From positions 1 to 50,652 of the forward strand of contig NZ_JACFXV010000042.1 of assembly GCF_014050225.1 (NCBI RefSeq): a DNA stretch of 50,652 nt, given 5' to 3'. The position numbers were made by a program, and so were the translations under genes. The notes under the pieces are model-generated. The model made no database searches. It worked only from the letters and a program-made list of their open reading frames with translations, and was not told where the DNA came from. The stretch's first letter is position 1; each line of letters begins with the position of its first letter. Below, one piece after another: positions 19,975 to 22,460 of this stretch. The DNA is from Stappia albiluteola (lineage in GTDB: Bacteria > Pseudomonadota > Alphaproteobacteria > Rhizobiales > Stappiaceae).

Positions 19975-21063
19975 ATGTCGCACAACACTTTCGGCCATCT
20001 CTTCCGCGTCACCACCTGGGGCGAAAGCCACGGGCCGATGATCGGCTGCGTCGTGGACGGCTGCCCGCCGCTGATCCCGCTGACGGAAGCCGATATCCAG
20101 TCCTATCTCGACAAGCGCAAGCCCGGGCAATCGAAGTTCACGACCCAGCGGCGCGAGGCGGACGAGGTGCGCATTGTCTCCGGCGTGATGGTCGACGAGG
20201 ACGGTATCCAGAAGACGACCGGTACGCCGATCTCCCTCATCATCGAGAATACCGACCAGCGTTCGAAGGACTATTCCGAGATCAAGGAACGCTATCGGCC
20301 CGGCCATGCCGATTTCACCTATGACGCAAAGTACGGCATTCGCGACTATCGCGGCGGCGGGCGCTCCTCGGCGCGCGAGACCGCGATGCGCGTTGCGGCG
20401 GGTGCTGTCGCCCGCAAGGTGGTGCCGGGCCTGCTGGTGCGCGGCGCGCTGGTGCAGGTCGGTCCGCACAGGATCAATCGCGACAACTGGGACTGGGAGG
20501 AGGTCAACAACAACCCCTTCTTCTGCCCGGACAAGGAAGCGGCCGTCCTCTTCGCCGATTATCTGGACGGCATCCGCAAGGCCGGCTCATCGGTCGGCGC
20601 GGTCATCGAGGTCGTGGCGGAAGGGGTTCCGGTCGGGCTAGGCGCGCCGATCTACGGCAAGCTCGACCAGGAAATCGCGTCGGGCCTGATGTCGATCAAT
20701 GCGGTCAAGGGTGTCGAAATTGGCAACGGCTTCGAGGCGGCGGCGCTGACGGGTGAGGAAAATGCCGACGAGATGCGCCTTAGCGGCAACGGTCATCCGG
20801 TGTTTTTGTCCAACAACGCCGGCGGCGTGCTTGGCGGCATCTCAAGCGGCGAACCCGTAGTCGCACGTTTCGCGGTGAAGCCGACCTCATCGATCCTGAC
20901 GCCGAAGAAGTCGATCACGCGCGGCGGCGAGGAAGTCGACGTGATGACGAAGGGCCGCCACGACCCTTGCGTCGGTATCCGCGCGGTGCCGGTCGGCGAA
21001 GCCATGGTTGCCTGCACCATTGCTGATCATTACCTGCGTCACAGGGGGCAGGTGGGCGGCTGA
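19975..21063 (+). CDS. aroC: Chorismate synthase
   Basis: A 362-residue enzyme, the normal length for AroC. It catalyses the last step of the shikimate pathway, EPSP to chorismate, with reduced FMN as cofactor. Signatures seen are GESHG near residues 16-20, [31 protein letters not shown] (about residues 100-130) and the C-terminal [18 protein letters not shown] block with a nearby phosphate-binding SI(L)TPKKSI. ATG 19975 gives the canonical MSHNTFG start. The following gene makes a precursor of riboflavin, the source of FMN, and starts 77 bp later from its own promoter. Confidence 0.96.
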
Positions 21064-21119
21064 TTCAGGAGATTTCAGCGACACTGAAAGATTTCTGATT
21101 TTTTGTTGAGACTGAAATC
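21062..21119 (+). promoter_or_regulatory. Candidate operator cluster upstream of the HTH-RibB gene
   Basis: A perfect inverted repeat TTTCAG-CGACA-CTGAAA lies at 21073-21089. Further half sites are GATTCAG at 21062-21068 and CTGAAATC at 21112-21119, the last inside the promoter spacer. The downstream gene product begins with a helix-turn-helix domain, so autogenous binding is a natural guess. The half-site repetition is seen directly; the regulator identity is inference. Confidence 0.5.
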
Positions 21120-21134
21120 GGCTGGCGTTAATAT
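21106..21134 (+). promoter_or_regulatory. Sigma-70-type promoter of the HTH-RibB gene
   Basis: TTGAGA (21106-21111), a 17-bp spacer and TAATAT (21129-21134) form a near-consensus promoter. Transcription would start about 7 bases after the -10 box, at 21141, which is the A of the ATG. The predicted mRNA is therefore leaderless. No FMN riboswitch fits into the 77-bp gap. Confidence 0.6.
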
Positions 21135-21140
21135 GCCGGC

Positions 21141-22460
21141 ATGCGTCTCGACCAATGGCTTGTCCACAATCAGGAATCGCGTTCCGCCTTCGCCCGCCGC
21201 ACGGGGTTGTCACCCGCTGCGATCACCGCGCTATGCAACGACCCGCGCGTCTGGGTCTCGCGGGAGACAGCGGAGAAGATCGCCGCTGCGACGGGCGGCA
21301 CCGTGACGCCCAACGACCTTCTCGGACTTGCCCCATCCAAGGAAATAGCCATGTCACAGTCCCGTGTCGCCGAAGCCATCCGGGCTTTCGAACGCGGCGA
21401 GATCGTCGTCGTGACCGACGATGACGACCGCGAGAATGAGGGCGATCTGATCGTCGCCGCCTCCAAGATCACGCCGGAGCAGATGGCCTTCATCATCCGC
21501 CACACCTCCGGCATCGTCTGCACGCCGATGACGCGCGATACGGCGCGCCGCCTGCGGCTGGACCCGATGGTGGCCGACAATGATGCGCCGTTGTCGACCG
21601 CTTTCACGATCTCCGTCGACTACCGTCATGGCCTGACCACCGGTATCTCGGCGGAGGAACGGACAGCAACAGTGCATGGCCTCGCCAACCCGAACGCGGG
21701 CGCAACGGATTTCGCCCGCCCCGGCCATATCTTCCCGCTGATCGCGAAGGATGGCGGCGTTCTCATGCGGTCCGGCCATACGGAAGCGGCAGTCGACCTG
21801 TGTCGGCTTGCCGGCGTGCCCGAGGTCGGCGTCATCAGCGAACTCGTCAATGACGACGGCACGGTGAAGCGTGGCGCGGCGGTGGCGGAATTCGCCGCCG
21901 AGCACGGGCTGAAGATGGTTTCCGTCGCCGACCTGATCGCCTGGCGGCAGCGGACCGAGCGGCTTGTGGAGCGGGTGAGCGAGCAGCCGATCGATACGAT
22001 CGCCGGACCGGCCTATGCCATCACCTACGCAACGCCCTACGATCCGATGCATCATGTGGCGGTGGTCTTCGGCGACATTCTCGACGGCCGCAACGTGCCG
22101 GTGCGCCTGCAGCTTGAATCGGTGCTGGACGATATTTTCGGCGAGCGCCGTCAGCTCGACGATGTGATGCGCGGTTTTGCCGAGCGCGGCCGTGGCGTGA
22201 TCGTCTATCTGCGTGAGGGCTCGGTCGGCGTCGCACGCCAGGCGCGCCGGTCGCGCGCCGACATCGAGGCGGCGGAACTCGAGAAGCACGGATCCGCACA
22301 GGCCCGCGAGGAGCAGTGGCGCGAAGTCGGCCTTGGCGCGCAGATTCTCAAGGATCTCGGCGTCAATTCCATTCAGCTGCTGTCCTCGCGCCAAAGGCAC
22401 TATGTCGGACTGGAAGGGTTCGGTATCGTGATCGAGGGGACAGATATCCTCGAAGGCTGA
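21141..22460 (+). CDS. ribB: 3,4-dihydroxy-2-butanone 4-phosphate synthase RibBX with N-terminal HTH domain
   Basis: A 439-residue fusion. Residues about 8-64 look like a Cro/YdaS-type helix-turn-helix (RSAFARRTGLSPAAITALCN, then VWVSRETAEKIAAATGGTV). Residues about 71-285 are DHBP synthase with the acidic loop DDDDRENEGDL, TSGIVC and RSGHTEAAVDL; this enzyme makes the four-carbon precursor of riboflavin from ribulose-5-P. Residues about 290-439 resemble GTP cyclohydrolase II but lack the zinc cysteines, which matches the described RibBX architecture. An internal ATG at 21351 (residue 71), preceded by AAGGAA, could give a normal RibBX without the HTH. Confidence 0.88.
   Translation: MRLDQWLVHNQESRSAFARRTGLSPAAITALCNDPRVWVSRETAEKIAAATGGTVTPNDLLGLAPSKEIAMSQSRVAEAIRAFERGEIVVVTDDDDRENEGDLIVAASKITPEQMAFIIRHTSGIVCTPMTRDTARRLRLDPMVADNDAPLSTAFTISVDYRHGLTTGISAEERTATVHGLANPNAGATDFARPGHIFPLIAKDGGVLMRSGHTEAAVDLCRLAGVPEVGVISELVNDDGTVKRGAAVAEFAAEHGLKMVSVADLIAWRQRTERLVERVSEQPIDTIAGPAYAITYATPYDPMHHVAVVFGDILDGRNVPVRLQLESVLDDIFGERRQLDDVMRGFAERGRGVIVYLREGSVGVARQARRSRADIEAAELEKHGSAQAREEQWREVGLGAQILKDLGVNSIQLLSSRQRHYVGLEGFGIVIEGTDILEG

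Follow-up and report, generated by a model that had tools for sequence, protein, structure and literature searches.

A helix-turn-helix domain fused to RibBX in Stappia albiluteola and its relatives: a probable repressor of its own, predicted leaderless gene

Why should an enzyme of riboflavin synthesis carry a DNA-binding domain, and what would that domain bind? The question is raised by a gene in a stretch of 50,652 nucleotides from Stappia albiluteola (positions 1 to 50,652 of contig NZ_JACFXV010000042.1, assembly GCF_014050225.1), which is called the window here. The gene, ribBX, encodes a protein in which a small helix-turn-helix (HTH) domain precedes a RibB domain and a RibX domain. Bacterial riboflavin genes are known mainly for control at the RNA level, through the FMN riboswitch. 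In the present case, it is an enzyme of the pathway that appears to bear its own repressor head, with an operator that is conserved across families and shared with a riboflavin importer. Based on comparative sequence analysis, it is probable (a little over three chances in four) that HTH-RibBX is a self-regulating enzyme that represses its own leaderless gene and, in relatives, also riboflavin import, and that a short RibBX is made from the same gene.

The fusion can be read directly from the sequence. An HTH at the N-terminus of RibB had been noticed in the original prediction, and the first 70 amino acids indeed score 30.6 bits with the Pfam profile HTH_26 (cut-off 22, residues 2–64), and are also above the cut-off of HTH_3 (25.4 bits against 23). 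AlphaFold models the HTH alone as five helices with a mean pLDDT of 81.3 and block means of 82–90 over residues 1–60. In the model of the full protein, made with a 34-row alignment, the same five N-terminal helices (block-mean pLDDT 72–91, overall mean 72.5) are followed by a low-confidence linker at residues 62–71 and then by the RibBX body, and this model matches PDB entry 6mnz, the RibBX of Acinetobacter. Across families, residues M1, L3, L7, A18, T51 and V55 of the HTH are invariant, and S24, T56 and P57 nearly so. A sequence search of the PDB with the HTH gave no match, and a fold search with the HTH model put YdaS on top, weakly (E 0.089), with nothing at E<0.001. The identity of the HTH as a YdaS toxin was considered and rejected: the fold resembles YdaS, but the YdaS_toxin profile gives 18.3 bits, under its curated cut-off of 30. 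The RibB part scores 274.1 bits with PF00926, and its DDDDRENEGD stretch is invariant or nearly so among 34 sequences. When the C-terminal part is aligned to 4i14 (RibBA of M. tuberculosis) and 2bz0 (GTP cyclohydrolase II, or GCHII, of E. coli), the cysteine and the CDC motif are found to be replaced or missing; because this zinc-binding motif is lost, the part is assigned as RibX. In the whole genome, the gene is the sole match to PF00926 and also the sole match to PF00925.

A candidate for what this head binds lies just upstream. The sequence TTTCAGCGACACTGAAA, here called O1, is a perfect palindrome with the half-sites TTTCAG and CTGAAA; no other exact operator match exists in the window, where 0.00 are expected, or anywhere in the 4.36 Mb genome. 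The half-sites had been seen before, including one, CTGAAA at 21112–21117, in the promoter spacer. This last one is real as well: relatives show it to be half of a second operator, O2, at −40. Of 81 distinct loci, 69 have O1 at −67 to −71, counted from the ATG, and when the operator match is averaged over these 69, there is a second peak at −40 with 6.93 of 12 positions matching, while the other offsets from −52 to −25 give 1.74–5.22. A wider regulon in the S. albiluteola genome was considered and rejected, as seven of the nine other one-mismatch sites fall within reading frames, and there is no FMN element close to any of the nine. Sites with at most one mismatch number 10 for the operator and 4 for a reversed control pattern.

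The fusion is also found in other genomes. It is present in all 37 genomes of the family Stappiaceae, in each case matching from residue 1, and in 2 of 24 genomes from other families; an order-wide draw of 199 genomes holds at least 31 with the HTH fused to RibBX, and a class-wide draw of 289 genomes adds two from another order. In a separate scan of named genomes, 183 stretches were found to code for a relative of the HTH. The best 80 of these, used as named loci, include Stappia, Roseibium/Labrenzia, Pannonibacter, Pseudovibrio and Breoghania, and also cover Bosea, Prosthecomicrobium, Siculibacillus, Pinisolibacter and metagenome-assembled genomes. The HTH has a patchy distribution on a tree built from 54 RibBX bodies: the well-supported branches require two or more changes, and the best tree requires six. 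This is a quick tree with a simple model, from which eight of 28 HTH-less loci were left out since their frame was not located by motif.

Both the HTH and the operator are kept in these relatives. The operator, with at most two mismatches, lies upstream of 38 of 39 HTH-bearing loci from whole genomes (27 exact), and the exception, L045, has a variant palindrome. Among the named loci, which overlap with these 39, it is present in 80 of 80 (52 exact, 24 with one mismatch and 4 with two), compared to 44 of 8000 shuffles. The order and class draws supplied another 25 fused loci, of which 21 have it; of the four without it, three show a variant palindrome. Loci that encode RibBX without the HTH look different. 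Where the RibB start could be located, an operator with at most two mismatches was seen in 0 of 8 (L048 was excluded from the first nine, as its start was not located). Among 39 others there was none with at most one mismatch and one non-palindromic match with two; these controls were 40 loci chosen from 119 genomes with a match, from which L277 was dropped because it has an HTH.

Where the HTH diverges, the palindrome is altered and its 6-N5-6 geometry is kept in most cases. In family f23, which includes L045 and L238, all three loci have TATTAG-N5-CTAATA; L222 has TTTAAG-N5-CTTAAA, with a near copy in L221, and L217 has ATTTAG-N5-CTAAAT. Where the half-site is TTTCAG, the third-helix residue that follows Thr/Ser is Ala, and where it is one of the others, this residue is Gln, a correlation over few lineages. 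These observations bear on the possibility that the operator belongs to another regulator, and that RibBX carries its HTH as a mere passenger or uses it only for protein-protein contacts. Standalone HTHs of the same type are indeed present in the class. However, operator and HTH are present together and absent together, the half-sites differ where the HTH differs, and an unrelated protein is not expected to track the fusion across families, so that this explanation appears very improbable.

The next question is how the gene is read. The promoter that had been proposed, TTGAGA and TAATAT with a 17 bp spacer, holds up: it has 9 of 12 consensus matches and is the sole promoter-like site in 20900–21400 (shuffled sequences give a mean of 0.1). 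Between its −10 box and the ATG at 21141 there are just six bases. In relatives, TTG is found at −35 in 47 of 69 loci, and the TA that begins the −10 box lies at −12 relative to the ATG in 48 of these loci and at −13 in another 20. The start codon of the HTH is ATG in 81 of 81 distinct loci, and complementarity to the anti-Shine-Dalgarno sequence before it shows no enrichment, being below that of shuffles (mean −2.03 vs −2.58 kcal/mol, in relatives). With a promoter spacing fixed to the ATG and no Shine-Dalgarno (SD) sequence, the HTH-RibBX mRNA is predicted to be leaderless and to start on its AUG. In another alphaproteobacterium, Sinorhizobium meliloti, 171 transcripts begin on their AUG (PMC3616915).

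The gene has a further candidate start, which was not part of the original prediction: an in-frame AAGGA-N7-ATG before the RibB domain. In 80 of 80 loci, the window among them (1 of the 81 was skipped), an SD is followed by an in-frame start codon (ATG, GTG or TTG) 20–26 codons before DDDDREN. The SD energy is −4.5 kcal/mol or lower in 80 of 80, compared to 23% of 1558 other in-frame ATG, GTG or TTG codons, a comparison that is generous to the internal start, as the lowest energy of several candidates per locus is set against a per-codon control. When a fixed position is read without preselecting codons, namely column 22 before DDDDREN, 39 of 60 Stappia-type loci have Val there, 18 have Met and 3 have Leu. 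The Val codon in this column is GTG in 39 of 39, against a background of 30% of Val codons, and the codon before it varies. In 20 Bosea-type loci, column 21 is ATG in 11, and a neighbouring codon is used in the rest. The internal start coincides with the place where ordinary RibBX begins. Because a conserved SD and an in-frame start codon precede RibB, a second, HTH-free RibBX product is probably made, which would be 369 amino acids long.

One could go further and propose that the HTH region is usually untranslated, that the SD-preceded ATG at 21351 is the true start, and that everything upstream is leader. The SD and start codon at 21339–21353, conserved in relatives, together with the missing SD before 21141, fit such an arrangement, but residues 1–64 show the conservation of a folded HTH in different families, the frame is kept despite changes in linker length, and the first codon is without exception ATG. 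We consider it extremely improbable, and two products from one gene remain the preferred explanation.

It had also been proposed that the enzyme regulates its gene in place of an FMN riboswitch. The absence of the riboswitch stands, as no match reaches the gathering threshold in the window or E<=0.001 in the S. albiluteola genome. Control of ribBX by an FMN riboswitch or another Rfam element was rejected, with no such element in the window or in 14 ribB loci scanned. Replacement is too simple a description, though, because nine HTH-less ribB loci are also without a riboswitch, and because the ribN gene of the family uses the operator together with an FMN riboswitch.

This use at ribN was found when exact operators were collected from the 37 family genomes. 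There are 59 of them (the reversed control pattern gives 6), 26 at ribBX, 16 at ribN and 17 elsewhere. The 16 ribN operators end 9–58 nt before an FMN riboswitch, which is followed by an EamA transporter gene; the distance to the aptamer is 9–10 nt in four Roseibium-group loci and 51–58 nt in the other twelve. Overall, ribN is found in 19 family genomes (E below 1e-70, with the other EamA matches of the family weaker than 1e-30), and these have an FMN aptamer in 19 of 19 and an operator with at most one mismatch in 18 of 19 cases. In two genomes without the HTH, the EamA gene of the ribN kind (one at E 1e-56) has an FMN riboswitch but lacks the operator. The EamA genes are putatively assigned as RibN from the riboswitch and the EamA match; the passages on RibN in PMC4418817 describe the alphaproteobacterial protein as a riboflavin importer with an FMN riboswitch. 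The S. albiluteola genome has no ribN match at E<=1e-20. As it has neither a ribN match nor a riboswitch, its sole exact operator is at the gene of the enzyme itself.

Other sequences recur in these genomes as well. In two Pseudovibrio-group genomes (L300 at 1500 and L307 at 1502), TTTCAGGGCCCCTGAAA or its reverse complement is found 19–35 nt before a gene starting MATEIRVPTLGESVTEATIAQWF, and this palindrome could mark a third target or be due to chance. The sequence TTTCAGTTCATCTGAAA recurs intergenically in L076 and L301, which are from one genus, and also in G043 of another family; there is no FMN element near it in L076 or L301.

How might these parts work together? The N-terminal HTH, dimerised via the enzyme part or alone, would bind O1 and the weaker O2. 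Because O2 encloses the −35 box, binding there should keep RNA polymerase out and thereby repress ribBX. HTH-RibBX of many relatives would also repress ribN from the operator just upstream of its FMN riboswitch. The one gene would give a leaderless mRNA that starts at the AUG of the HTH and yields the long form, while the internal SD and start would yield plain RibBX. Binding would be altered by a signal that RibB or RibX senses, most likely a flavin or some metabolite of the pathway. The degenerate RibX would be the natural candidate, which suggests a role for this puzzling domain, that of a sensor.

Repression is favoured as the direction because the sites overlap core promoters, and variable operator positions over core promoters are typical of repression. 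The alternative is that HTH-RibBX binds the operator and activates ribBX and ribN, with O1 at about −60 as an activator site. It is true that the distance of O1, which lies upstream of the −35 box, hardly varies among 69 of the 81 loci, and that the promoter in the window is imperfect. An activator, however, does not fit well with an O2 that encloses the −35 box, with operators near or over the core promoter (at −41/−42 in several Pseudovibrio and family f20, and at −24/−25 in f23), or with ribN operators that end 9–10 nt (four Roseibium-group loci) or 51–58 nt (the other twelve) before the FMN aptamer. Activation is thus unlikely, though less so than the other alternatives discussed here.

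A number of observations weigh against self-repression by HTH-RibBX as set out here, or complicate it. When adjusted for relatedness, a sign test on the association of operator and HTH is not significant (median p 0.5, with two well-supported independent pairs with and without the HTH). One locus, L218 (G116), bears the HTH and has no palindrome that could be recognised. In five Pinisolibacter-type loci, it was the −40 site alone that reached two mismatches. The operator is at −41/−42 in several Pseudovibrio and in f20, and at −57 to −109 in other Pseudovibrio; because of these shifts, the leaderless layout is not universal. At L087 (G029), ribN has an FMN riboswitch without an operator, although ribBX in the same genome has one. 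Finally, 17 of the 59 exact sites are without a known link to riboflavin, 13 of these 17 being inside reading frames and none having an FMN element. Even so, the autoregulation suggested in the original prediction is supported as the likely interpretation by the phylogenetic footprint, the lack of the operator where the HTH is absent, the altered operators found with altered HTHs, and the second target at ribN.

The features of the locus are collected in Table 1. The gene comes after a chorismate-synthase-like frame (identity assigned by eye) with its stop at 21063.

Table 1. Features of the ribBX locus of S. albiluteola, in positions of the window.
Feature	Position	Strand	Basis
HTH-RibB-RibX coding sequence, 439 amino acids	21141..22460	+	ORF translation
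HTH domain, residues 1–64, five helices	21141..21332	+	Pfam profile and AlphaFold
RibB domain (PF00926)	21372..21944	+	Pfam profile, genome search
RibX, GTP-cyclohydrolase-II-like domain without zinc-binding cysteines	21969..22439	+	profile, alignment
Operator O1 (TTTCAG-CGACA-CTGAAA), a perfect palindrome centred about 60 bp upstream of the start codon	21073..21089	.	exact-match scan, conservation
Operator O2, weaker, encloses the −35 box	21101..21117	.	3 mismatches here, 1–2 in many relatives
−35 box TTGAGA	21106..21111	+	promoter scan; TTG at −35 in 47/69 loci
−10 box TAATAT, 6 bp upstream of the ATG	21129..21134	+	promoter scan; position of TA conserved in loci
AUG of HTH-RibBX, also the predicted start of its leaderless mRNA	21141..21143	+	ATG in 81/81 loci; weak SD energy
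Internal SD AAGGA (21339–21343) and in-frame ATG (21351–21353), N7 between	21339..21353	+	conserved in 80/80 loci

The same HTH module also occurs outside RibBX. It is found at the N-terminus of CoaBC, a protein of coenzyme A synthesis, in 8 loci (L236/L313–L320) of family f32, where the Pfam match was seen for L236. In four of the eight, an exact palindrome whose halves are 3, 5 or 7 nt apart lies just upstream of the ATG, for example ATTACA-N5-TGTAAT, and L236 (G200) has TTGCTT-N17-TAAGTT-N6-ATG, the same leaderless geometry as at ribBX. Single loci have the module fused to glutamine synthetase (L229, G229) and to a nitrate-reductase-delta-like protein (L223, G452); none of the other glutamine synthetase matches found begins at residue 1. 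Standalone HTHs of 65–76 amino acids are found in L230, L231, L233, L234 and L227, some with repeated upstream motifs (TGCCAATTCGGCAT in L233 and L234). There may be a broader class in which a small HTH is grafted before enzymes of cofactor biosynthesis (RibBX, and in another family CoaBC). Its members would have a palindrome next to the start codon and two isoforms, a regulatory one from a leaderless start and a catalytic one from a start with an SD; the dead GTP cyclohydrolase domain of RibBX would then have turned into a sensor of flavin and be the protein equivalent of the FMN riboswitch. This is a tentative suggestion, and it is rather doubtful that all of it applies.

Enzymes that double as DNA-binding repressors of their own pathway are well known, and PutA, BirA and NadR are examples of such trigger enzymes. 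These are unrelated to RibBX, and in HTH-RibBX the DNA-binding head can probably be omitted via the internal translation start. Within riboflavin metabolism, the archaeal RbkR is a riboflavin kinase joined to an HTH that controls riboflavin genes. Both RbkR and HTH-RibBX thus combine a riboflavin-pathway enzyme with an HTH, but RbkR is a kinase, has a different HTH and belongs to Archaea; where PMC10746257 deals with it, it is named as a predicted regulator of a riboflavin operon. The FMN riboswitch (RF00050) precedes the same ribN gene in relatives, but it is an RNA sensor, and the operator lies 9–58 nt upstream of it. A RibB domain joined to a degenerate GCHII domain, as in HTH-RibBX, is known from the RibBX of Shewanella, Aeromonas and Bradyrhizobium, and from the Acinetobacter structure 6mnz. 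For Shewanella, the passages on RibBX in PMC10012899, citing other work, state that the X domain regulates the activity of RibB by a mechanism that is not known, and they make no mention of an N-terminal HTH, an own operator or a leaderless promoter. S. meliloti RibBA (SMc00008) is likewise an alphaproteobacterial protein with RibB and a GCHII-like part, there called bifunctional; according to the RibBA passages of PMC9478397, its deletion lowered flavin secretion without causing auxotrophy, and neither an HTH nor an operator is mentioned in them. In searches of an open-access library, no description of an HTH-RibB protein or its operator was found, and in passages of a 2025 review on riboflavin regulation (PMC12542839) the term helix-turn-helix does not occur. 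Since enzyme-repressors as such are already known, the probable layout with two isoforms, one of them leaderless, is the most unusual feature here. It offers a clear test of whether leaderless and internal translation split one gene into a regulator and an enzyme, in a system small enough that it could be rebuilt in E. coli.
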